A DNA stretch of 26,627 nt, from the IMG/VR virus record IMGVR_UViG_3300021368_001271, positions 1 through 26,627 of that record; one strand, written 5' to 3'. The notes under the pieces were generated by a model. That model was given only the letters and a program-made list of their open reading frames with translations, ran no database searches and had not been told where the DNA came from. Numbering within the stretch: the stretch's first letter is position 1; each line of letters opens with the position of its first letter. Made by a program: the position numbers and the translations under genes. This document shows, piece after piece, positions 10,837 through 23,342 of this stretch. The stretch comes from a virus.

Positions 10837-11870
10837 TTGTTACCTACATCAGATCGTCAAGTTATAACAACTATGACTTCTGTCAAATGCAATACTTCCT
10901 GACCTATGTTTTGGGTCACAGATCGGATAGTAACAAAAAAGCTGACATGGGAACTATGGCGCACAAGGTCATGGAGATCTTAGCGGGTCTTAAAAAGTTT
11001 CAGCAAGACAATCCACGTAAAAAATATCTAGAGATTGTAGATGACAAGTGCGCTAAAATTAGAGTTCACAAAGATAGGTTGTATACGGACGACTTTGTTA
11101 GCGAGATGTGCGAGTTGGCTATTGACGCATACGCAAAAGATTCTATTCACAAGTTTTACCCAGCAGATAGGAAGGTTGTAGTTCAGACTGTTTTCACTTT
11201 CCTTACCCATTCTGACGGGTTGTTCGATCCACGACAGAGAAATATTTACCACCCAGAAGCGCAGTTTGATATACCAATTGAAGAAGACTGGGCTAAATTT
11301 GATTATGAAATCGACGGCAAAAAAGTCTCTGGACAGTTGGCAATTAAGGGGACTATTGACTTGACAACCCTTATTGCAGATGATACAATAGAAGTTATTG
11401 ACTGGAAGACTGGTCGAAGGATGGACTGGACAACTGGTCAAGTAAAAGATTACAAAAAACTAGAGAGTGACCCTCAACTATTACTGTATTTCTATGCTAT
11501 ATCTAAATTATATAAAGATTTCCCTAATAGAATTATGAGTATTTTCTTTTACAAAGATAAGGATGGTAAAGTAGATCCTATGCCATTTAGTATTTGCTTA
11601 GGGCCAGAAGATGAGAAGAGATTCTTAGGAATGTTGAAGAAAAGGTTTGAGGAGATACGTGACAACGTACTACCCCAACCACTAAGGTCGGATAGGTCTA
11701 GCTTTAAATGTCAGAAGCTGTGCCACTTTTACAAGAACAATTGGCCCGGAACTGATGAAAAAATGTGTATATTTATAGAGAAGAAGTTAAAAAAAGACGG
11801 GATGGACAAAACTATCCAAGACTGTACCAAAGAAGGGTTTTCAATAGGTTATTACGAGGCACCAGGATGA
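10833..11870 (+). CDS. RecB/Cas4-like PD-(D/E)XK nuclease with cysteine cluster
   Basis: A 345-residue nuclease of the RecB/Cas4 (PDDEXK_1) group. Motifs in order are the GTMAH segment (H44), GTIDL (D176), VIDWKTG (D190, K192) and a QLLLYFYA motif (215-222), the last being the family's conserved Q-x-x-x-Y helix. Cysteines C17, C293, C297 and C312 are placed like the four ligands of the iron-sulfur cluster in Cas4, AddB and Dna2-type nucleases, with one cysteine near the N-terminus and three near the C-terminus. It probably degrades or processes DNA ends during recombination. No CRISPR array or other cas gene is in the window. It overlaps both neighbours by four bases. Confidence 0.85.
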   Translation: MIVTYIRSSSYNNYDFCQMQYFLTYVLGHRSDSNKKADMGTMAHKVMEILAGLKKFQQDNPRKKYLEIVDDKCAKIRVHKDRLYTDDFVSEMCELAIDAYAKDSIHKFYPADRKVVVQTVFTFLTHSDGLFDPRQRNIYHPEAQFDIPIEEDWAKFDYEIDGKKVSGQLAIKGTIDLTTLIADDTIEVIDWKTGRRMDWTTGQVKDYKKLESDPQLLLYFYAISKLYKDFPNRIMSIFFYKDKDGKVDPMPFSICLGPEDEKRFLGMLKKRFEEIRDNVLPQPLRSDRSSFKCQKLCHFYKNNWPGTDEKMCIFIEKKLKKDGMDKTIQDCTKEGFSIGYYEAPG

Positions 11871-13096
11871 AAAGAAGAGATTTTATTAAGGTTGGCGCAA
11901 GCACCTTCGCAATCGGTAATGTTACAGCATCTTACGCTGATGAAAGCAAGAAGGATGATACAGCAGTATTATTCCTTTTTCTTGGGGGTGGCGCTAGCCA
12001 CATCGAAACCTTTAACCCCATACCACTTGCGCCTGCCGACAGAAGGTCTGTGACTGGAGCTATCAATACTAACGTAGCTGGTGTAGAAATCGGTGGTCTG
12101 TTCACAGAACTAGCGAAGCGTGCCGATAAGATTGCAATTCCTAGAGCGTTTGGTCACAGAGATCAAAATCACGCATCTGCTGTACACTGGGTTGTGACTG
12201 GTGAAGCTAACTTTGGCACTGGTTCTAGCTCAAAGTGGCCTAGTTTTGGAAGCATGATGAGCAAGCATCACGGGGTGAATACTGATGATGGCTTACCTAC
12301 CTATGTAAAATTAGGACAATACGACCATAATGGTGCGGCTTGGCTTGGCGGAAAGTACACAGGTTTTGATGCCACAAGGGAGGGTCGCAAAGACCTGCAA
12401 CTACTTGGCAAAAGCGAAGATTTTCAAAGAAGGCTACACGCCTTGAATGTTATTGACAACGGATTTATTGCTAAAGAACAGCAGATGGCAAAAGATTGGA
12501 GCGATCTTCGTAACCAGTCCGTAGATATTATTCTTGGTAACGGCTCTAAAGCTTTTCGCTTTGAAAACGATAAAGACTACGATAAGTTCAAGGATGCTAC
12601 ACTGGGGCAGGATGCCCTTACAGCAATTAGGCTACTAGAAGCTGGCTCTAAGTTTGTCTCATTGAGCTACGGAGGTTGGGATATGCACACTAATATCGCA
12701 ACTAGCCTACAAACCAGACAAGTAGAACTAGATCACTATCTAGCAAAAATTATGGACACATTAGAAGCCAGAGGTATGTATGAGCGAGTTATGCTTGTAG
12801 TCACTTCTGAGTTTGGACGTACACCAAAAGTTAACGCAAACCAAGGACGAGATCACTTTGGCAAATTATCGCCACTAATGATTAGCTGCGGCAGCTACGA
12901 GATGGGTAGGACAATCGGCACTTCTAGCCCAAATGCTGACGATTTTGACCAAGGAAGATCCACGCCAGAAGATTTAGCTTGGACTATTTACGATCACTTA
13001 AATATGCCAAGAAACGCAAGATACACCGCGACCGATGGTCGCCCACATAGTTTAGTTAAAGATGATTCTAAAAATATTTTAACGGAGATTGTATAA
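11867..13096 (+). CDS. DUF1501 protein with Tat-type leader
   Basis: A 409-residue member of DUF1501, a family related to the alkaline phosphatase/sulfatase superfamily and very abundant in Planctomycetes and Verrucomicrobia. Visible family marks are LFLGGGASHIETFNP (37-51), HRDQNHASAVHWVVTG (97-112), GGWDMH (269-274), EFGRTP (315-320) and GRDHF (327-331). Several of these hold the His/Asp/Glu residues expected to bind metal, although the usual HIDTFDP reads HIETFNP. The N-terminus MKRRDFIK has the twin-arginine motif, followed by a weakly hydrophobic stretch and a possible cleavage site after SYA (22-24), so export by Tat is predicted. I choose the ATG at 11867, overlapping the previous stop (ATGA) with GAGG upstream, over a GTG at 11765. 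The enzymatic activity of the family is not established. A periplasmic or surface role during infection is possible. Confidence 0.88.
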   Translation: MKRRDFIKVGASTFAIGNVTASYADESKKDDTAVLFLFLGGGASHIETFNPIPLAPADRRSVTGAINTNVAGVEIGGLFTELAKRADKIAIPRAFGHRDQNHASAVHWVVTGEANFGTGSSSKWPSFGSMMSKHHGVNTDDGLPTYVKLGQYDHNGAAWLGGKYTGFDATREGRKDLQLLGKSEDFQRRLHALNVIDNGFIAKEQQMAKDWSDLRNQSVDIILGNGSKAFRFENDKDYDKFKDATLGQDALTAIRLLEAGSKFVSLSYGGWDMHTNIATSLQTRQVELDHYLAKIMDTLEARGMYERVMLVVTSEFGRTPKVNANQGRDHFGKLSPLMISCGSYEMGRTIGTSSPNADDFDQGRSTPEDLAWTIYDHLNMPRNARYTATDGRPHSLVKDDSKNILTEIV

Positions 13097-14785: not shown

Positions 14786-16336
14786 ATGACTTGGTTCCCG
14801 TTATGTAATTACACACATTACTCACTTCTTCGCGGCTTTTCTAAGCCAAACGAACTTGTAGCAGAATGTAAAAGTCGTGGCTATGTAGCTTGCGGCATTG
14901 CTGACTACAAAACTATCTCTGGTGCTGTATCATTCTACTCAGCTTGTAAAAAGAATGATATCATGCCAATCATTGGCTGTAGCTTTGATGGGTTTAGTCT
15001 ATTCGCTAAAAATAAGAATGGATGGTATGAACTTATTGAGCTTGTGTCATCTATCAAAGATGACGAAGTAGATAGCGCCCTGTTAAGTAAAGCCACTAAA
15101 AGTAAAAATTTATTCAAAGTAACACCCAGTAAAGACTTCCCAGAGTCCTACTACGTAAACAAAGAAGATGCCGAACTTCACAGAATACTTTTGTGTTCTA
15201 ACTTAAAATGTACAATGGCAAAAGCCAAAGATAAAGTCAAGGATACACCTCTGCAAAAGTTCTTTGACAAAGATGAATACTACCTTAAAAATAATTCTAC
15301 GAAAAATACATACTTTGATGACATACTAGAAGAGTGTGAAGAGTATAATATTCTTAATAATCCAATGCTACCCTCATTCCCTTGTCCCAACGGGCAATCA
15401 GAAGAAGATTATCTGCGCACGTTGGCTAGAAAAGGCTGGACCAAAAAGCTGGGCAAGAAATTTAAAAAGGGTAGTAAAGAGTGGGACATCTATGGCGACA
15501 GGTTTAAGAAAGAGTTTGAGGTTATCAAGGAAGCAAACCTATTTGGTTACTTTCTAATTGTTAGTGACATCATTAGACATGTAGAAAGCAAAGGCTGGAT
15601 GGCTGGGCCGGGACGTGGTTCTGCTGCTGGCTGTCTAATCTCTTACCTTATTGGCGTTACGCAGGTTGATCCTGTAGAGTTTGATTTAATTTTTGAGAGA
15701 TTCTATAACTCTGGTAGAAATACTGATGGTAATGTTTCTTTACCTGATATTGACATGGACGTTCCTGCTGGCAAAAGAGATGATGTTATTGATTATCTTC
15801 GCGAGACTTATGGAGCAGAGAGAGTTAGTCAGATGCTCACGTTTGGCAGACTGCAAGGAAGAAGCGCGGTTAAAGAAGTTCTTCGCACATATCAAGCCTG
15901 TGGTTTTTCAGAAATGAATGAAATTACAAAAGCAATCCCAGACGAAGCGGCCATCTCTGACCAACTATCACAGATGGACGATGACGAACGATCTATTATT
16001 AGGTGGGCGTTGATAAACAACCCAGAAGATTTACGTGGATATTGTTTTATAAATGATGACGGCGAGCTAGAAGGTGATTACGCTGACATGTTTGATAAAG
16101 CAATTAAGATAGAGGGAACATTTAAGACTCAAGGTAAACATGCCGCTGGCGTAGTTATCTCGGCAGAACCTTTGCACAAGGTCTGTCCGATGGCTACTCA
16201 GAAAAATGCTGACGAAAAGATAGCTGGACTAGAAATGTCAGATCTAGAATCTCTTGGTCATGTCAAGTTTGATGTGCTGGGGCTATCTACTCTTGATAAG
16301 GTTATGAAAATAAAGGAAATACTAAATGAATCGTGA
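14786..16336 (+). CDS. dnaE: DNA polymerase III alpha, N-terminal half (PHP and palm)
   Basis: The first half of a C-family replicative polymerase, 516 residues. Residues 1-65 match the start of the PHP domain (YSLLRGFSKPNELV, then GIADYKTISGAVSFYSACK, IMPIIG), and the rest of PHP is shortened. The metal-binding H-x-H of active PHP domains is replaced (CNY by my alignment), so PHP proofreading is probably lost. The palm has GPGRGSAAG (274-282), LPDIDMD (catalytic D321 and D323, equal to E. coli D401 and D403), GKHAAGVVIS (450-459) and KFDVLGL (D496, equal to E. coli D555). The protein ends 16 residues after LGL, where E. coli DnaE continues into the fingers. All three catalytic aspartates are therefore in this piece, and it should need the product of 16963-18540 to work. 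Confidence 0.92.
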   Translation: MTWFPLCNYTHYSLLRGFSKPNELVAECKSRGYVACGIADYKTISGAVSFYSACKKNDIMPIIGCSFDGFSLFAKNKNGWYELIELVSSIKDDEVDSALLSKATKSKNLFKVTPSKDFPESYYVNKEDAELHRILLCSNLKCTMAKAKDKVKDTPLQKFFDKDEYYLKNNSTKNTYFDDILEECEEYNILNNPMLPSFPCPNGQSEEDYLRTLARKGWTKKLGKKFKKGSKEWDIYGDRFKKEFEVIKEANLFGYFLIVSDIIRHVESKGWMAGPGRGSAAGCLISYLIGVTQVDPVEFDLIFERFYNSGRNTDGNVSLPDIDMDVPAGKRDDVIDYLRETYGAERVSQMLTFGRLQGRSAVKEVLRTYQACGFSEMNEITKAIPDEAAISDQLSQMDDDERSIIRWALINNPEDLRGYCFINDDGELEGDYADMFDKAIKIEGTFKTQGKHAAGVVISAEPLHKVCPMATQKNADEKIAGLEMSDLESLGHVKFDVLGLSTLDKVMKIKEILNES

Positions 16337-17000
16337 TATTATTGTCTTTGACTTTGAAACGGGCGGCAGAAATCCATTGACATGTCAACCTACACAGGTT
16401 GCTGCTCTGGCTCTTGATGGCAGAAACTTCAAGCTCAAGGGTACGTTTAACAGTGAGATTTGGGCTGAGACCGACGACGAGAAAGCTGTTGCCGCTGGGC
16501 TTGGTCCAATTGAAGATGGCGCACTCAAGGTCACTGGCAAAACGCGAGAAGGTATAGCTAAAGCGCCAAAGCCAAAAGCTGTATGGTCAAAGTTTTGTAA
16601 TTTTGTAAATAAATACAATTGGAAGGGTACATCCTTCTTTGCTCCTATTGCTGCTGGGTATAACATTCTTGGGTACGATATGATTATCGTAGATAGATTG
16701 TGTAAAGAGTATGGACCTTGGGACAAGGAGCGGCAAAGGCAAAAGCTATTCCACCAAATTTATAAAATTGATATGATGGATAACATGTTTATGTGGACAG
16801 AGGGAGATCCTAATGTAAGATCTATCAGTATGGATAACCTAAGAGAAAGAATGGGCTTGTCAAAAGACAACGCTCACGACGCTCTACAGGATGTTAAAGA
16901 TACCGCTAATATTATGATTAAATTTATGAAGACTCACAGAGCAGTCTACAGGAACTTGAAAATTGAGAAAGCATTTGCAGATGGAAACACTTACGTTTGA
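16326..17000 (+). CDS. DEDDh 3'-5' exonuclease between the polymerase halves
   Basis: A 224-residue DnaQ/exonuclease I-type nuclease. The catalytic set is visible: FDFETGG (D9, E11), GYNILGYDMIIVD (D118) and NAHDALQD (H184, D189), which defines the DEDDh group. It probably proofreads for the split polymerase, since the PHP domain of the latter looks inactive. Similar proteins act as the epsilon subunit in bacteria. The start ATG overlaps the end of dnaE-N by 11 bases and has AAGGAA about eight bases upstream. The end overlaps the beginning of dnaE-C by 20-38 bases depending on its start. It uses a third reading frame, different from both polymerase halves, so no fusion protein is encoded. Confidence 0.9.
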   Translation: MNRDIIVFDFETGGRNPLTCQPTQVAALALDGRNFKLKGTFNSEIWAETDDEKAVAAGLGPIEDGALKVTGKTREGIAKAPKPKAVWSKFCNFVNKYNWKGTSFFAPIAAGYNILGYDMIIVDRLCKEYGPWDKERQRQKLFHQIYKIDMMDNMFMWTEGDPNVRSISMDNLRERMGLSKDNAHDALQDVKDTANIMIKFMKTHRAVYRNLKIEKAFADGNTYV

Positions 17001-18540
17001 TTATGATGATGAAGGGGCTTGGGACTTATTTGAAGAGGGTAGAACCAAGGGCGTATTTCAACTAGAAAGCAACCTTGGTAGGTCTTGGTCAAAGAAAGTT
17101 AAGCCTAAAAACTTAGAAGAGCTTGCTGCGCTGATTAGTATTCTGCGTCCAGGTTGTCTTAAAGCAATCACTGACGGCAAATCTATGAGTCAGCACTACG
17201 TTGACAGGAAGCATAAAGTAGAGGAGGTCACATATCTACACGACTCTCTTAAAGATATTCTTGAACCCACTTATGGAGTTTTGATTTATCAAGAGCAGTG
17301 TATGCGCATTGCGCAAAAGATCGCTGGGTTTAATCTACAAGAAGCTGATGTGCTTCGTAAAGCTATTGGTAAGAAGAAAGCAGATCTTATGGCAAAAGTT
17401 CGCAAGGACTTTATCGAGGGATGCAAGAGACTCAAGACTGTTGACGAAGCAACTGCTGATGAAATCTTTGGTTGGATTGAGAAGTCTGCTAGATACTCGT
17501 TTAATAAAAGTCATGCCGTTGCATACGCTATGAACTCCTACCTTAGTGCGTGGTACAAAGCCAATTACACTAAAGAGTTTTTCTTGTCGTACTTGATACA
17601 CGCCAACGAGAAGCAAGATCCTCATCAAGAGATTTATGAGCTTGTTTCAGAGGCAAAGCTGTTTGACATCGAAGTTAAAATTCCAAAACTGTCTGGATGG
17701 GCAGAAGAGTTCTTTATTACAAAAAAAGGTATATACTTCGGTGTAAAAAATGTAAAGTCTCTAACGGGTGTTAATGGCGATAAAGTTATTGATGCTATTC
17801 AGAAAGTGTCGGAAGATATAAATAAGTCCCCAGGTAATCTTACTTGGATGGATATTCTTATACATCTGTCTACAAAGATTAACTCCACTGGCTTTAAAGC
17901 ATTATGTTCTATTGGTTTCTTTTCCACAAAGGTCACAGGTATTAGCAGAAACAAAGCGCTTTACGAATACTTAATCTTTAGGAATTTGACCAAGGCTGAA
18001 CTTAAATGGGTGACTGAGAATTATAAATCTAGAAAGTGGAAAACATTAACCGAGTGCTTTACACAATTAGCCCCTACTAAAAAAGAAGGTGGTGGCACAA
18101 GTAAAGCCTCTAGAAGTCAAGATATTCAGAATGAAATCTGCTTTTTAGAAAATCCACCGTATGAACTTACAGATGATCCGTCTTGGATTGTCGAGCAAGA
18201 AATTAAGTTTTTGGGCTGTCCAATCTCTATTTCTAGAATTGAGTCGTCCGACACTTCTTCTTCAAACACAAGCTGTAAAGAATTGCTGGATGGAAAGAAA
18301 GGTGAAAACCTTTGCGTTGCGGCTACAATCAACAGAGTGGCTGACCACAAGTGTAAGAATGGAAAGATGATGAGTTTTCTAACTATAGAAGATGAAACAT
18401 GCTCACTAGACAGTGTTGTTGTATTCCCTGAAACCAGAGAGAAATACCAATACGTACTATTTGAGAATAACAATTTATTGTTGTGCGGGAAGACAGATAA
18501 AAATAATTCATTTATTATTGATAAAATACATGAAATATAG
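16963..18540 (+). CDS. dnaE: DNA polymerase III alpha, C-terminal half (fingers, HhH, OB)
   Basis: The second half of the polymerase. It begins where the first half stops: AWDLFEEGRTKGVFQLES corresponds to the start of the fingers in E. coli DnaE. Further marks are LISILRPG, LEPTYGVLIYQEQCMRIAQ, VLRKAIGKKKADLM, and the diagnostic SFNKSHAVAYAMNSYLSAWYK. A helix-hairpin-helix-type region follows (IYFGVKNVKSLTG), and the last 90 residues form an OB-fold (LCVAATINRVADHK...MSFLTIEDET). Two starts are possible: TTG at 16963 with AGGA nine bases upstream (525 residues), or ATG at 16981 (519 residues) with no clear ribosome site; I favour the TTG. No tau-binding domain is evident. The protein should form a working enzyme only together with dnaE-N. 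Confidence 0.9.
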   Translation: MRKHLQMETLTFDYDDEGAWDLFEEGRTKGVFQLESNLGRSWSKKVKPKNLEELAALISILRPGCLKAITDGKSMSQHYVDRKHKVEEVTYLHDSLKDILEPTYGVLIYQEQCMRIAQKIAGFNLQEADVLRKAIGKKKADLMAKVRKDFIEGCKRLKTVDEATADEIFGWIEKSARYSFNKSHAVAYAMNSYLSAWYKANYTKEFFLSYLIHANEKQDPHQEIYELVSEAKLFDIEVKIPKLSGWAEEFFITKKGIYFGVKNVKSLTGVNGDKVIDAIQKVSEDINKSPGNLTWMDILIHLSTKINSTGFKALCSIGFFSTKVTGISRNKALYEYLIFRNLTKAELKWVTENYKSRKWKTLTECFTQLAPTKKEGGGTSKASRSQDIQNEICFLENPPYELTDDPSWIVEQEIKFLGCPISISRIESSDTSSSNTSCKELLDGKKGENLCVAATINRVADHKCKNGKMMSFLTIEDETCSLDSVVVFPETREKYQYVLFENNNLLLCGKTDKNNSFIIDKIHEI

Positions 18541-18589
18541 TTCTGACTAGAGTATAACAGGTAATACATATTTATTTTTGGAGGATCTG

Positions 18590-18916
18590 ATGAATAATTG
18601 TACATTTACGGGGTATGTTTTGCATGACCCACAAATTGAAACGGGAGAGCAAGACGGCGGTGCTAGCTGTTGCACGTTTAAAATGGTTACTTATGAATAT
18701 AGAAAAAACAAGATGGGTGAAAAAAAGAAAATACCAACGACGTTGACTTTCCAAGCTTGGGCGAGTGGCGCTGAAACCATTACAAAATTAGCCAAAAAAG
18801 GTACTAAAATGACTGTCTATGCATCCGCAAGAAATGGTGTCATGAAGACAGACGCTACTGACGATGTTGTATTTAGAGTTAATGAATTTGACTTCGGCTG
18901 TTTAAACAAGGAATAA
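18590..18916 (+). CDS. ssb: Single-stranded DNA-binding protein
   Basis: A 108-residue OB-fold protein starting at the ATG at 18590, with a strong GGAGG five bases upstream (18580-18584). An in-frame TTG at 18578 overlaps that site and is rejected. Strand pattern CTFTGYVLHDPQIE, CCTFKMVTYEYRK, PTTLTFQAWASGAETITKLAKKGTKMTVYASAR follows bacterial SSB/PriB-type proteins, where the W/F-rich strand and KKG turn are typical. It lacks the long acidic C-terminal tail of bacterial SSB; it ends FGCLNKE. It would coat single-stranded DNA at the fork. A 49-base AT-rich gap before it holds TATAAC and TAATAC but no convincing -35 partner, so I do not call a promoter there. Confidence 0.8.
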   Translation: MNNCTFTGYVLHDPQIETGEQDGGASCCTFKMVTYEYRKNKMGEKKKIPTTLTFQAWASGAETITKLAKKGTKMTVYASARNGVMKTDATDDVVFRVNEFDFGCLNKE

Positions 18917-18917
18917 A

Positions 18918-20609
18918 ATGAGAAAGAAAAGAATACTATTTTGCTCTGAGGCTACTTTTCTTAATACAGGGTACGCCACTTATGCTAGAGAAATATTGAA
19001 CTATCTACAATCTACAGGTAAGTATGAATTAGCGGAGATGGCGGCTTATGGAGAGAGAAATGACCCTAGAGCAGCTGGTATTCCTTGGAAGTACTACGGG
19101 GTAGTACCTAATCAAATCAATGAACCGAAAGCTTCTGAGCAAGAGCTACAAGCCTACAATGCAACTCCATCGGCCCAGTTTGGGGAATGGATTTTTGAGC
19201 ATGTTTGCTTGGACTTCATGCCAGACGTAGTATGTGATATCCGTGACTTTTGGATGCTTGACTTCGCAGAGCGATCCCCATTTAGACCTTACTTTAAGTG
19301 GGCCGTAATGCCAACGGTTGATGCTAGACCGCAAGCTCGTCAATGGGTGGCAACGTATGCTAGCGCCGATGCCTGCTTCACATACTCGGATTGGGCGGGA
19401 GGGATCTTAAAAGATCAGTCAGGCGACAAAATTAACTATTTAGGTAGCGCCCCTCCGTCTGCCCATCCTGCATACAAACCTGTGGAGGACAGGAGAAAGC
19501 ACAAACAGTTTATGGGTCTTGATCCAGATGCCAAAATTATTGGTACGGTTATGAGAAATCAAAGGCGCAAGCTGTACCCAGACTTGTTTGAGGCATTTAA
19601 AAAGTTTCTTGACAAAGCTGAAAATAAGAACTATTATCTATATTGTCATACATCATATCCAGATTTAGGTTGGGATATCCCTGAACTATTAAACGAATAC
19701 GGTATCTCATCTAGAGTATTATTTACGTATATTTGCCCTGAGACTAAAAAACCATTTGTGTCTGTATTTAAGGGGGCTATGGCTCAGTCGCCTTATACTG
19801 GCAGATTTGGCGCTACTTTGTCCAATGTAAAAAATGGACTAAGCTATGAAGAACTATCTAATGTGGTAAACTGCTTTGACCTATTTACGCAGTATGCAAA
19901 CTGCGAAGGTTTTGGTTTGCCACAGGTAGAAGCTGCCGCCTGCGGAGTACCTGTGTGCGGAACGGACTATTCAGCTATGGAGAGTGTGTTAAGAAAGCTG
20001 GAAGGCTACCCAATTAAGCCCAAGGCTCTATACAAGGAATTAGAAACTGGATGTCTACGTGCTGTACCAGATAACGATGCGGCGGCAGGTCTTTTCCTAG
20101 ACTTCTTTGAAAATAAGACAGAAAAAGAAAGGGTTGCAATTGGTGAAAATACAAGGAAGATGTTTGAGAAGTACTACCAGTGGCATTTAAGTGGATCTCA
20201 GTGGGAAAGTTATTTTGATAGCTTTGAACCTGTGCCGTTTGAGCAATCTTGGGGTTCACCACCAAGAATAACACAGCCATCGCAAAAGCTAGATCTATCA
20301 AAGACTGGAGGCGTTTCTAGTGTTCAGCTAGCGAAGCACTTGATCGTGGATGTGCTTGGTGAACCAGAAAAGCTAAACACATTTTTTGAGGCAAGACTGA
20401 CTAGGGACTTGACATACAAACAAGCAACCTCCTCTACTGGCGGTATGTATTTCAACGAGTCTTCTGCTGCCTTTGACGGAATTAATCGCAGACAACCGTT
20501 TGATTACGACATTGCATACGATCAAATGGCAGGACTGTGCAACAGAAGAAATCAATGGGAACAGAAAAGGGTTGAAGTTATAAAGGAAAGGCAACAAGCT
20601 AGTGTTTAA
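18918..20609 (+). CDS. GT-B glycosyltransferase (GT4-like) with C-terminal extension
   Basis: First gene of the sugar cassette, 563 residues. The N-terminal Rossmann domain opens RILFCSEATFLNTGYATYAREIL. The C-terminal donor-binding domain contains IGTVMRNQRRKLYPDLFEAFKK and the family's E-x7-E motif in NCEGFGLPQVEAAACG (E330, E338), which binds the nucleotide-sugar donor. The product should transfer a sugar from a nucleotide sugar; donor and acceptor are unknown. After the glycosyltransferase part (about residue 440) comes an extra region of about 120 residues with no recognised family, ending in a basic helix (RRNQWEQKRVEVIKERQ). It could bind an acceptor or partner. The gene starts one base after the ssb stop region and overlaps the methyltransferase gene by eight bases. 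Confidence 0.85.
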   Translation: MRKKRILFCSEATFLNTGYATYAREILNYLQSTGKYELAEMAAYGERNDPRAAGIPWKYYGVVPNQINEPKASEQELQAYNATPSAQFGEWIFEHVCLDFMPDVVCDIRDFWMLDFAERSPFRPYFKWAVMPTVDARPQARQWVATYASADACFTYSDWAGGILKDQSGDKINYLGSAPPSAHPAYKPVEDRRKHKQFMGLDPDAKIIGTVMRNQRRKLYPDLFEAFKKFLDKAENKNYYLYCHTSYPDLGWDIPELLNEYGISSRVLFTYICPETKKPFVSVFKGAMAQSPYTGRFGATLSNVKNGLSYEELSNVVNCFDLFTQYANCEGFGLPQVEAAACGVPVCGTDYSAMESVLRKLEGYPIKPKALYKELETGCLRAVPDNDAAAGLFLDFFENKTEKERVAIGENTRKMFEKYYQWHLSGSQWESYFDSFEPVPFEQSWGSPPRITQPSQKLDLSKTGGVSSVQLAKHLIVDVLGEPEKLNTFFEARLTRDLTYKQATSSTGGMYFNESSAAFDGINRRQPFDYDIAYDQMAGLCNRRNQWEQKRVEVIKERQQASV

Positions 20610-21261
20610 TGGTCAGGTAAAGCAAGATTTATTTGTAAATAAAATCTTACAAAAGAATCAAGGGTTTTTCTTGGACATAGGCGCTGGCACTGGCGGTCTA
20701 ACAGGACGACCAGTAGAGTTCTACAGCAATACTTATTTCTTTGAAAGATACAGAGGGTGGAAGGGTATTGCTATTGATTACGATCAAAACTGGTATAACA
20801 ACGTAAAAAATAAAAGAACTAGCACAGTTAGTTGCGTAGACCTATTAGAAGTAAATGTAAACCAGCATTTAGAATCACTAAATTGTCCAGAAGATATAGA
20901 TTATATTTCTCTAGATGTAGATGACGCTCAGTGGAAAGTGTTTAATGAATTTGATTGGGATAAATATAAATTTAAGATATTGACCTTAGAACATAATTTA
21001 TTTCAATCTCAAGACATAGAACTACAAAGTCATACTGACGAACATAAAAGCAGAATATTAAATGAATACAATGTATATAGAGATGTTCTTTCTAGCAAGG
21101 GATACAAGATATTGTGGGGCAATGTAGTCTTAGATGGCTATGGTCCCGTAGAAGACTGGTGGGTAAGTGAAGAAGTTTATAATAAATTTAAACATTACGA
21201 AAAACATGATATAAATTACAAAGAGGTTGATAATGCGGATTTTATACATAGCGCACTATAA
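20602..21261 (+). CDS. FkbM-like SAM-dependent methyltransferase
   Basis: A 219-residue class I methyltransferase. FFLDIGAGTGG (22-32) is the SAM-binding glycine loop. NTYFFERYRGWKGIAIDYD closely follows the FkbM pattern in which SNT.FFE..LGW.GI.IEP precedes the acidic residue that binds the SAM ribose. The segment DIDYISLDVDD is the later acidic strand. FkbM-type enzymes O-methylate sugars or related hydroxyl groups, which fits a glycan-modifying role among glycosyltransferase genes. The start is GTG at 20602, inside the end of the previous gene, with AAGGAAAGG upstream; an ATG at 20609 is out of frame. The end overlaps the next gene by 29 bases. Confidence 0.82.
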   Translation: MFNGQVKQDLFVNKILQKNQGFFLDIGAGTGGLTGRPVEFYSNTYFFERYRGWKGIAIDYDQNWYNNVKNKRTSTVSCVDLLEVNVNQHLESLNCPEDIDYISLDVDDAQWKVFNEFDWDKYKFKILTLEHNLFQSQDIELQSHTDEHKSRILNEYNVYRDVLSSKGYKILWGNVVLDGYGPVEDWWVSEEVYNKFKHYEKHDINYKEVDNADFIHSAL

Positions 21262-22366
21262 GGAATTTGGCGGTTGGTCGCAAGCTGCAACTGATAATAT
21301 TCTTGCATTAGATAGCGTAGGTGTTGACGTAGTTTGTAGAAACGTTACGTTGACTCAAGATAAACAGGATGTTCATCCAAGGCTTTTGCAGCTAGAGAAA
21401 AAAGACTCCAGAGATTGTGACATCTGTATTCAGCATGTTCTGCCACATCACTATGTTCGCTCTGACATGTTCAAGAAAAACATAGCGTTTATGGAAACAG
21501 AGACACTAAGTCTAAAGCATTTGAATTGGTTCTATCAATTAGAAATGATGGACGAGGTTTGGGTGGCAAACGAGACTTCTAAAAATGCGCTACAAGAAGA
21601 TGGATTTGAAACACCAATTAAAGTAATTCATCACACTTGCGATACGTCAAAGTACACTAAAAGATATCCAGATCTTGCCATAACACAAGCAGAAGGTACT
21701 TTTAAATTTTATTATGTGGGAGATTTCAACGACAGAAAAAATCTAGAATCTATAGTTACATGCTTCCACTCTGAATTTGAAGAAGACGAGAACGTTTCGC
21801 TTGTGCTGAAGTTTAATAAATTTGGCGTTAGCCCTCAAGAGTTACACAACAAAGTTGTCCAGTACCTAAGTGAAATTAAGCAAAGTCTAAGAATTAGAAA
21901 TGACTACAAACAAGAGGTTATAGTAACGGATAAAGTTTCTGAAGAAAACCTTTTGTCGCTACATCAGTATTGTGATTGCTTTGTCTGCCCGTCTCATGGG
22001 GAAGCTTGGAGTATACCTACACTAGAGGCTATGGCCTTTGGTAATACCCCGATAGCAAGCAACTTTGGCGGACCCTCAGAGTTCATTGACAAGTCTAACT
22101 GGCGCACTGGAACGCTGGTGAACGGCGTGTACTCTTGTTGCAAATCAAAAGATGCAGCCTTTCCAGATTTATTTTCTTCTAAAGAATACTGGTTTCAGCC
22201 ATGCGAAAAACAAATTAGACAGCAAATGAGAAAGTATTACGAGTCGTGGGAAAAAGATCCAATTTCATACAGTCAAAGAAATAGAGTTGCTGGACTAAAG
22301 CAAGCGGAGAAATTCTCTTATCAAAACATAGGAAAAATTTTAAAGGATCAATTAAATGACATATAG
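21233..22366 (+). CDS. GT4-family glycosyltransferase
   Basis: A 377-residue GT-B glycosyltransferase starting at the ATG at 21233 with AGAGG seven bases upstream; an in-frame TTG two codons earlier is not needed. It opens with MRILYIAHYKEFGGWSQA, includes the inter-domain segment DEVWVANETSKNALQEDGF and KVIHHTCDTSKY, and has the donor-binding HGEAWSIPTLEAMAFGNTPI with the E-x7-E glutamates E257 and E265. FYYVGDFNDRKNLESIV marks the start of the second domain. The architecture is a complete GT4 enzyme, likely retaining. Donor and acceptor sugars are unknown. It overlaps the methyltransferase upstream and the next glycosyltransferase downstream (11 bases). Confidence 0.85.
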   Translation: MRILYIAHYKEFGGWSQAATDNILALDSVGVDVVCRNVTLTQDKQDVHPRLLQLEKKDSRDCDICIQHVLPHHYVRSDMFKKNIAFMETETLSLKHLNWFYQLEMMDEVWVANETSKNALQEDGFETPIKVIHHTCDTSKYTKRYPDLAITQAEGTFKFYYVGDFNDRKNLESIVTCFHSEFEEDENVSLVLKFNKFGVSPQELHNKVVQYLSEIKQSLRIRNDYKQEVIVTDKVSEENLLSLHQYCDCFVCPSHGEAWSIPTLEAMAFGNTPIASNFGGPSEFIDKSNWRTGTLVNGVYSCCKSKDAAFPDLFSSKEYWFQPCEKQIRQQMRKYYESWEKDPISYSQRNRVAGLKQAEKFSYQNIGKILKDQLNDI

Positions 22367-23342
22367 TACACAGCCAATTATCCAACGAGCTATCAAGCCT
22401 AAAAATAAAGAAAGGCTAGACATCTTGTGCTTTGATACGCATGAACGCTGTCAGTCACAAATGGCAAAGACTGGGCATAACTTCTATGCCTTTAGATATA
22501 AAGACTGCAAGGTTTGGAATACAAACTTTGCTGAAATACCCAGTAACTACCATCCAATAGAAAACTTGTACGATGATATAGACTTTGATTTTATATTGTC
22601 TCAGAGTAAATTTGGGCAACTGCAAATCTCCAAACAGATTCAGCAGCAGTTGGGTTTGCCTATTATACACTTGGAGCATACCATTCCTACTTCAAACTAC
22701 ACTCCTGAGCAAGTAGAGATGTTTAAGAGTATATGGGGTGACTATAATATATTTATCAGTGAGTACGCCAGAGAGTCTTGGGGTTTTGACGAAAACGAGA
22801 CGGTTATTTGTAATTCTATTGACCATGAATTCTTTAAGCCAATCGACGTAGAGTCGGATGAAACTGTGTTTACAGTGCAGAATGATTTTATTAATAGGGA
22901 TTACTGCTTGAATTATCAAGGGTGGCAGCGTATAATTAATGGCTTTTCCGCAAAAGTGCTTGGTGAAACAGAGGGTTTATCTAAAGCTGCTGATTCTTTA
23001 GAGCATCTCAGAGAAGAGTACAACAAGTGCGCAGTGTATATCAACACGACCACAGAAAGTCAAATGCCAACAGCTATTCTAGAAGCTATGGCGTGCGGTA
23101 AGCCCGTTGTTAGTACAGCCACATGTTCTATACCAAGTTTTATTAAACACGGCGAGAACGGCTTTCTCACTAACGATGAAGAGGAGTTTAGGGGATATAT
23201 ACAGCAACTTCTAGACGACAAAGACCTTAGAGACAAAATTGGTCAGTCTGCTAGAGAAACTGTCTTAGATGTGTTTTCAGAACAAAAATATATAGACAGT
23301 TGGAATAAAGTTTTTAGAAACGTATACGAGGATTTAAAATGA
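22356..23342 (+). CDS. GT4-like glycosyltransferase, shortened and altered active site
   Basis: A 328-residue GT-B-like protein. The second domain is recognisable by MPTAILEAMACGKPVVSTATCSIPSFIKHGENGFL, a hallmark of GT4 enzymes. The usual first glutamate of the E-x7-E pair appears shifted or replaced: the local sequence is TTESQMPTAILE, so aligning on PTAILE puts Ser235 where Glu is expected, with Glu234 next to it. The segment between the domains is short, and the canonical phosphate-binding stretch (VGR..K or similar) is hard to find around residues 180-200. It may be a specialised or partly degenerate transferase. It overlaps the next gene by four bases (ATGA). Confidence 0.75.
   Translation: MTYSTQPIIQRAIKPKNKERLDILCFDTHERCQSQMAKTGHNFYAFRYKDCKVWNTNFAEIPSNYHPIENLYDDIDFDFILSQSKFGQLQISKQIQQQLGLPIIHLEHTIPTSNYTPEQVEMFKSIWGDYNIFISEYARESWGFDENETVICNSIDHEFFKPIDVESDETVFTVQNDFINRDYCLNYQGWQRIINGFSAKVLGETEGLSKAADSLEHLREEYNKCAVYINTTTESQMPTAILEAMACGKPVVSTATCSIPSFIKHGENGFLTNDEEEFRGYIQQLLDDKDLRDKIGQSARETVLDVFSEQKYIDSWNKVFRNVYEDLK

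Follow-up and report, generated by a model that had tools for sequence, protein, structure and literature searches.

A phage DnaE-type polymerase encoded in two halves with an exonuclease gene conserved between them

Few single-chain enzymes are as conserved as the replicative polymerases, and it is rare for their catalytic subunit to be stably divided across a whole diverse clade. Here we describe such a division in the DNA polymerase III (Pol III) alpha gene, dnaE, of a virus represented by the IMG/VR contig IMGVR_UViG_3300021368_001271, the 26,627 bases of which are referred to below as the window. That a phage Pol III alpha can be divided is already known. Group 2.2 jumbo phages encode a split minimal Pol III alpha whose two proteins are expected to reconstitute the enzyme; in that form the NTP-binding and metal-binding parts of a minimal catalytic module are divided between distant loci, and a PolB is encoded alongside (Iyer 2021, PMC7824862). 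A two-gene dnaE is also found in the cultured Rossellomorea phage phiT1 (PV767480, gp20-gp18), and dnaE lies in pieces in cyanobacteria, where it is split by an intein, and among the so-called fractured genes. Exonucleases have been tied to C-family polymerases in other ways, being inserted inside the PHP domain of the single-chain PolC (Timinskas 2013, PMC3919608) and fused as an N-terminal domain, again in one chain, to the DnaE1 of Bacteroidetes (PMC3919608). What appears to be new, as far as we have found, is a conserved split form with an inserted exonuclease gene; no description of a conserved replicase with the order N-half, exonuclease, C-half was found in the literature, for which coverage of subscription papers was partial.

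All parts of the locus lie on the plus strand. The N-half of DnaE (14786..16336, 516 residues) starts at ATG 14786, preceded by AGGAG, and comprises PHP, palm and thumb; it matches the Pfam families PHP (PF02811, 5.4e-15) and DNA_pol3_alpha (PF07733, 7.8e-67). The middle open reading frame (ORF; 16326..17000, 224 residues, ATG 16326 preceded by AAGGA) encodes a DEDDh 3'-5' exonuclease, a probable proofreading subunit, with a match to RNase_T (1.8e-10). The C-half (16981..18540), with fingers, a tandem HhH region and an OB fold, matches DNA_pol3_finger (PF17657, 5.1e-48) and is 519 residues long from ATG 16981, the probable start, or 525 from TTG 16963. The three ORFs use three different frames; the first two overlap by 11 nucleotides (nt; 16326..16336), an overlap not conserved among relatives, and the last two by 20 nt (16981..17000, counted from ATG 16981). 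The initial annotation, made from the letters alone, had described just such a locus, namely a divided dnaE with D321, D323 and D496 in a 516-residue N-half, a C-half of about 520 residues with fingers, HhH and OB parts, and a complete DEDDh exonuclease between them, in a third frame and overlapping both, and on each of these points the ORFs, domains, residues and overlaps agree with it. Its linker count, 41 residues in the window and 49 in E. coli, was likewise reproduced: here 16 residues at the N-half end and 25 at the C-half start separate the break from conserved motifs, whereas in E. coli alpha 49 residues lie between LGL (557-559) and FQLES (from 609).

AlphaFold models, in which each half was folded alone as a single chain, place the break more closely. 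The N-half model has a mean predicted local distance difference test score (pLDDT) of 92.0 and superposes over its whole length on E. coli alpha 4-575 (Z 24-27, root-mean-square deviation (rmsd) 3.0-3.3); its PHP domain has no interruption, and residues 1-187 match that of 4gx8, an alpha-epsilon chimera, with Z 14.6. In the C-half model (pLDDT 92.5), which supports the OB fold, residues 1-519 match E. coli alpha 582-1073 with Z 22.9; the rmsd is 8.5 over 448 residues, because the domains shift, and 3.1-3.8 over the first 320. The break therefore maps between residues 575 and 582 of E. coli alpha, within the variable linker, as had been proposed, and nothing is lost there. Judged from the models, the two halves would jointly supply all of a DnaE as far as the OB fold, the cut lying between palm and fingers. 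The features that define the DnaE type are present, that is, a palm with the three aspartates and GPGRGS, a PHP fold and the order fingers-HhH-OB. The single polypeptide that is the usual state of DnaE, though not a catalytic requirement, is not; and as the C-half ends with its OB fold at the equivalent of E. coli residue 1073, it is missing the C-terminal tau-binding domain (about 1074-1160 in E. coli; not universal in DnaE). The split alpha of Iyer 2021 resembles this polymerase in being a phage C-family enzyme made as two proteins, but here everything from PHP to OB is kept and the cut falls after the palm. In several deep members of the group (L115 6656-8311, L195 4164-5864 and others) the C-half opens with a leader of about 30 residues that carries a CGC motif (..YxFxCGCxF..), possibly a metal site that was lost in the subclade of the window.

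The initial annotation had further suggested a PolC-like arrangement, and this suggestion did not hold. PolC is similar in pairing a C-family polymerase with a DEDDh exonuclease, and the exonuclease described here finds its best PDB profile match in one of PolC type. However, membership in PolC fails because the exonuclease lies outside the PHP domain, being encoded after the palm as a separate ORF (16326-17000) and not within one chain, and both halves fit DnaE better (Z 22-27 to DnaE versus 21-22 to PolC for the N-half, 19-24 versus 11-14 for the C-half).

Relatives were collected by IMG/VR scans with the N-half, the C-half and the exonuclease and then with more distant members, and their gene order was tested by tblastn. 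The order N, exonuclease, C was found in 280 of the 280 loci that hold all three parts, on contigs of up to 205 kb, and none was fused, while E. coli dnaE, run as a control, was correctly scored as fused; several loci share a contig, and the set corresponds to 197 distinct exonucleases and to 128 sets after dereplication. A further scan found the order kept in 77 of 79 loci, the N-half of the other two lying beyond the fetched stretch. The lowest identities to the window are about 41-45% for the N-half, 38-40% for the C-half and 31% for the exonuclease. The three-gene polymerase with a probable proofreader encoded between its halves, as first proposed for the window, recurs in all comparable loci. 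In a tree with fused E. coli and phage polymerases the 40 tripartite rows form one clade (Shimodaira-Hasegawa-like approximate likelihood ratio test (SH-aLRT) 100); a single origin of the arrangement at the base of the clade would fit. Two scans with deeper alignments, in search of a fused sister group, returned only tripartite loci among their best 80, and fused relatives may rank lower. Phage phiT1, whose dnaE (L303 2977-6259) is cut at the same palm/fingers linker, falls outside this clade and its fission is therefore taken to be independent; its two genes are separated by a 49-residue ORF and not by an exonuclease, and in the other Bacillaceae phages that were checked dnaE is whole.

A full-length dnaE elsewhere in these genomes, which the initial annotation had wished to see excluded, did not appear: PF07733 gave one match per contig in 25 long contigs (up to 174 kb) and in 11 more, and neither a second C-family polymerase nor a PolB (PF00136) was found in the 25. 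In contrast to the form described in Iyer 2021, then, the genes are mostly adjacent, an exonuclease lies between them, and no PolB was found in the 25 relatives. In 110 of 114 relatives a gene for a single-stranded DNA-binding protein (SSB) comes no more than 2 kb after the C-half, giving a conserved cassette of N-half, exonuclease, C-half and SSB.

In the polymerase, D321, D323 and D496 are invariant among 44 diverse relatives, as are G274 and G276-S279 of the GPGRGS motif in the N-half, P275 being nearly so, and the DEDDh set of the exonuclease (D9, E11, D118, H184 and D189) is invariant among 42. Where dS could be estimated, the ratio of nonsynonymous to synonymous substitution rates (dN/dS) was 0.025-0.08, which points to strong purifying selection, and the pairwise distances of the three proteins are correlated (r 0.82-0.91), none of 200 permutations reaching values as high. 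The PHP metal motif is degenerate in the subclade of the window, reading PLCNYTHYSLL in the N-half of the window itself, which thus belongs with the 75 of 128 relatives that have lost it, the remaining 53 having it intact. In bacteria a disrupted PHP site accompanies proofreading by a separate epsilon (PMC3919608). Together with the match of the exonuclease to phrog_192, a DNA polymerase exonuclease subunit (4e-24), and to the PolC-type exonuclease in the PDB, this suggests to us that proofreading is the task of the exonuclease, which would most simply be docked on the PHP domain. The likeness to E. coli alpha-epsilon would then extend from the order PHP-palm-thumb-fingers-HhH-OB and the catalytic aspartates to a separate DEDDh proofreader and, in the window, a degenerate PHP motif; what differs is that alpha is here two proteins without a tau-binding domain and that the exonuclease gene lies between its halves. 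Bacteroidetes DnaE1 is comparable in that the exonuclease is genetically tied to DnaE, but the tie there is an N-terminal fusion.

It could be argued that the polymerase is genuinely in two pieces but that the exonuclease is a free nuclease, acting for example in host DNA degradation or recombination, which merely shares the operon. Its profile also matches exonuclease I, and its nearest cultured relatives, in phages DAC19 and MA9V-3, adjoin genes other than dnaE. We nevertheless consider this explanation improbable, as the exonuclease stands between the halves in every relative showing all three parts, overlaps the C-half or lies no more than 30 nt from it in 103 of 128, and has diverged in step with both halves; the PHROG and PDB matches and the lost PHP metal motif also speak for a polymerase subunit.

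A second explanation, which we regard as very improbable, is that protein trans-splicing or RNA splicing restores a covalent link between the halves, so that the mature polymerase is one chain. The cyanobacterial dnaE gives it a precedent, and the clade itself contains inteins elsewhere in dnaE. In L029 and L057 the C-half holds a split intein (FNK/C...N/SHS) whose two parts flank an ORF for a Vsr-like endonuclease, and a further one, again with a Vsr-like endonuclease between, interrupts the N-half of L029 (GPGRG/C...N/S), whose dnaE is thus in four pieces; these inteins follow the 'fractured gene' pattern inside an already divided dnaE. A one-piece intein with an HNH_2 domain lies in the fingers of L074 (6682-9027, RPG/C...N/C). 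At the break between N- and C-half there is, unlike in cyanobacteria, no intein: Pfam found no intein domain in either half, the flanks of 16 and 25 residues leave no room for intein fragments, and, since the split inteins of L029 and L057 were detected, inteins at the break would have been recognised. An intein at this position was accordingly rejected. No Rfam intron was found in the window, a weak test, as the probable intron of Bacillus phage Jayan escaped Rfam too, and the rejection of an intron is therefore based mainly on the coding overlaps and on a 6-kb separation seen in some relatives. In Jayan (L309 2980-6387) dnaE is interrupted exactly at MP/DID before the catalytic aspartate, by what looks like an intron, whereas the gene is whole in phage PS1.

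The spacing of the genes argues in the same direction. Between N-half and exonuclease some relatives have overlaps of 4 to 19 nt and others gaps that reach 1.8 kb or more. In G027 as much as 6.1 kb, with complete unrelated genes, separates the end of the N-half from the exonuclease, and G026 is laid out likewise. The N-half is thus separable from the exonuclease and C-half. All three frame relations (0, 1 and 2) are represented at the junctions, with no conserved frameshift at the break; taken with the 6.1-kb separation, this excludes programmed frameshifting and makes joining at the RNA level very unlikely. The varied frames and spacings, the lack of an intein or intron at the break and the distant N-halves therefore indicate three proteins that are made separately and would assemble in trans, the parts at the break probably remaining unligated.

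Degeneration of a dying or damaged dnaE, or an assembly error, with the host polymerase copying the phage, is the least probable of all, although mobile endonuclease genes and inteins often invade the locus. The break recurs in independent assemblies of about 200 distinct relatives. This rules out an assembly chimera of the kind that the initial annotation had thought to check for and means that the arrangement is no error and dnaE not a broken gene; the strong purifying selection, the invariance of every catalytic residue and the confident whole folds of both halves all disagree with decay.

The arrangement is therefore real and conserved, and combines ordinary chemistry with an unusual three-gene form. 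With considerable confidence we read it as a three-protein phage replicase, a DnaE-type alpha whose division at the palm/fingers linker is permanent and whose probable proofreader is encoded between the halves. It would be the replicase of large-genome tailed phages of an uncultured clade, in which Pol III alpha was divided for good into two separately translated proteins. The N-half, with PHP, palm, thumb and catalytic aspartates, and the C-half, with fingers, HhH and OB, would dock noncovalently to give an enzyme of normal DnaE shape; the exonuclease would attach, in the simplest case to the face of PHP that epsilon occupies in E. coli, and proofread in trans. An SSB is encoded after both halves. 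Several points weigh against this reading. The evidence for the proposed polymerase comes from sequence and single-chain models, and its link to the exonuclease consists solely of position, conservation and divergence in parallel, the last of which could also be produced by shared ancestry. The related contigs are mostly fragments, so that a small probability remains of a second polymerase beyond them. Finally, a conserved protein of about 72 residues (YKSV.FSGCAIE..S.CNL..YQVHSD..IDEAV.KFLELK) is encoded between N-half and exonuclease in 34 of 128 relatives (L115 5780-5995, L150 5080-5307, L114 5769-5996 and others) and may be a fourth subunit; it has no PHROG match, and because neither the window nor 55 window-like loci have a copy, the full list of subunits is uncertain. 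A bolder version, which we put forward tentatively and hold to be rather unlikely as a whole, is that of an obligate three-subunit C-family replicase of a major uncultured phage clade, in which the exonuclease, besides acting as a nuclease, bridges the halves or helps them to assemble, and in which loss of the PHP motif and shrinkage of the N-half in some subclades mark the full transfer of proofreading to it.

If the three-protein reading is right, these phages offer natural experiments in how a C-family polymerase can function with no covalent bond joining palm to fingers and in how proofreading passed from PHP to a DEDDh subunit, and they provide a natural split polymerase for biotechnology. 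They also carry a warning for annotation, as calls of half genes would miss or mislabel the replicase.

The split may plausibly go back to an old insertion at a linker that tolerates it, possibly by way of a homing-endonuclease phase, after which the exonuclease became fixed there; direct insertion of the gene is equally possible. In many relatives the N-half/exonuclease and exonuclease/C-half junctions hold HNH, endonuclease-VII-like and other genes that are absent in close kin, and where the window has an 11-nt overlap between N-half and exonuclease, L007 has a 673-nt insert; on this comparison the junctions are an insertion hotspot. The insert of about 6 kb in L130/G026 and L131/G027 (L297) was seen by eye to contain aldehyde dehydrogenase, amidinotransferase, aminotransferase and sugar-nucleotide dehydrogenase-like genes. 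A uracil-DNA-glycosylase-like gene, also identified by eye, lies between N-half and exonuclease in L195 (2500-3075) and L180 (4479 onwards), and phrog_4335 joins a C-terminal piece of DnaE to a uracil-DNA-glycosylase-like domain. In L026 (4289-6225) and L028 (6001-7945) the N-half is broken again right before the catalytic SLPDIDID, with a conserved extra segment of about 90 residues and a change of frame; Rfam found no intron at this second break.

In the window the divided dnaE is part of a phage replication module. Around the cassette are genes for a dUTPase, PhoH, a UvsX-like recombinase, a DnaB helicase, a primase, a dNMP kinase and a second exonuclease; the SSB gene (18578..18916, plus strand, probable start ATG 18590) comes next after the C-half and is followed by glycosyltransferases. 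In a relative of 174 kb a terminase can be recognised and a portal is weakly matched; a T4-type gp23 capsid gave no match, the control likewise matching nowhere. Among GTDB genomes, relatives of the exonuclease of the window occur on a 3.6-kb contig in a Flavobacteriales metagenome-assembled genome (MAG) and on a 152,655-base contig (L299, VFHP01000007.1) with a tripartite dnaE that was binned with a SAR202 MAG, a weak hint at a host; these binnings are too weak for a host to be named. Past the replication genes, at 18918-23342, the window carries a glycosyltransferase cluster with an FkbM-type methyltransferase, and at 11765-13096 it encodes a DUF1501 protein (Pfam 7.7e-56), which is unexpected in a phage replication region.

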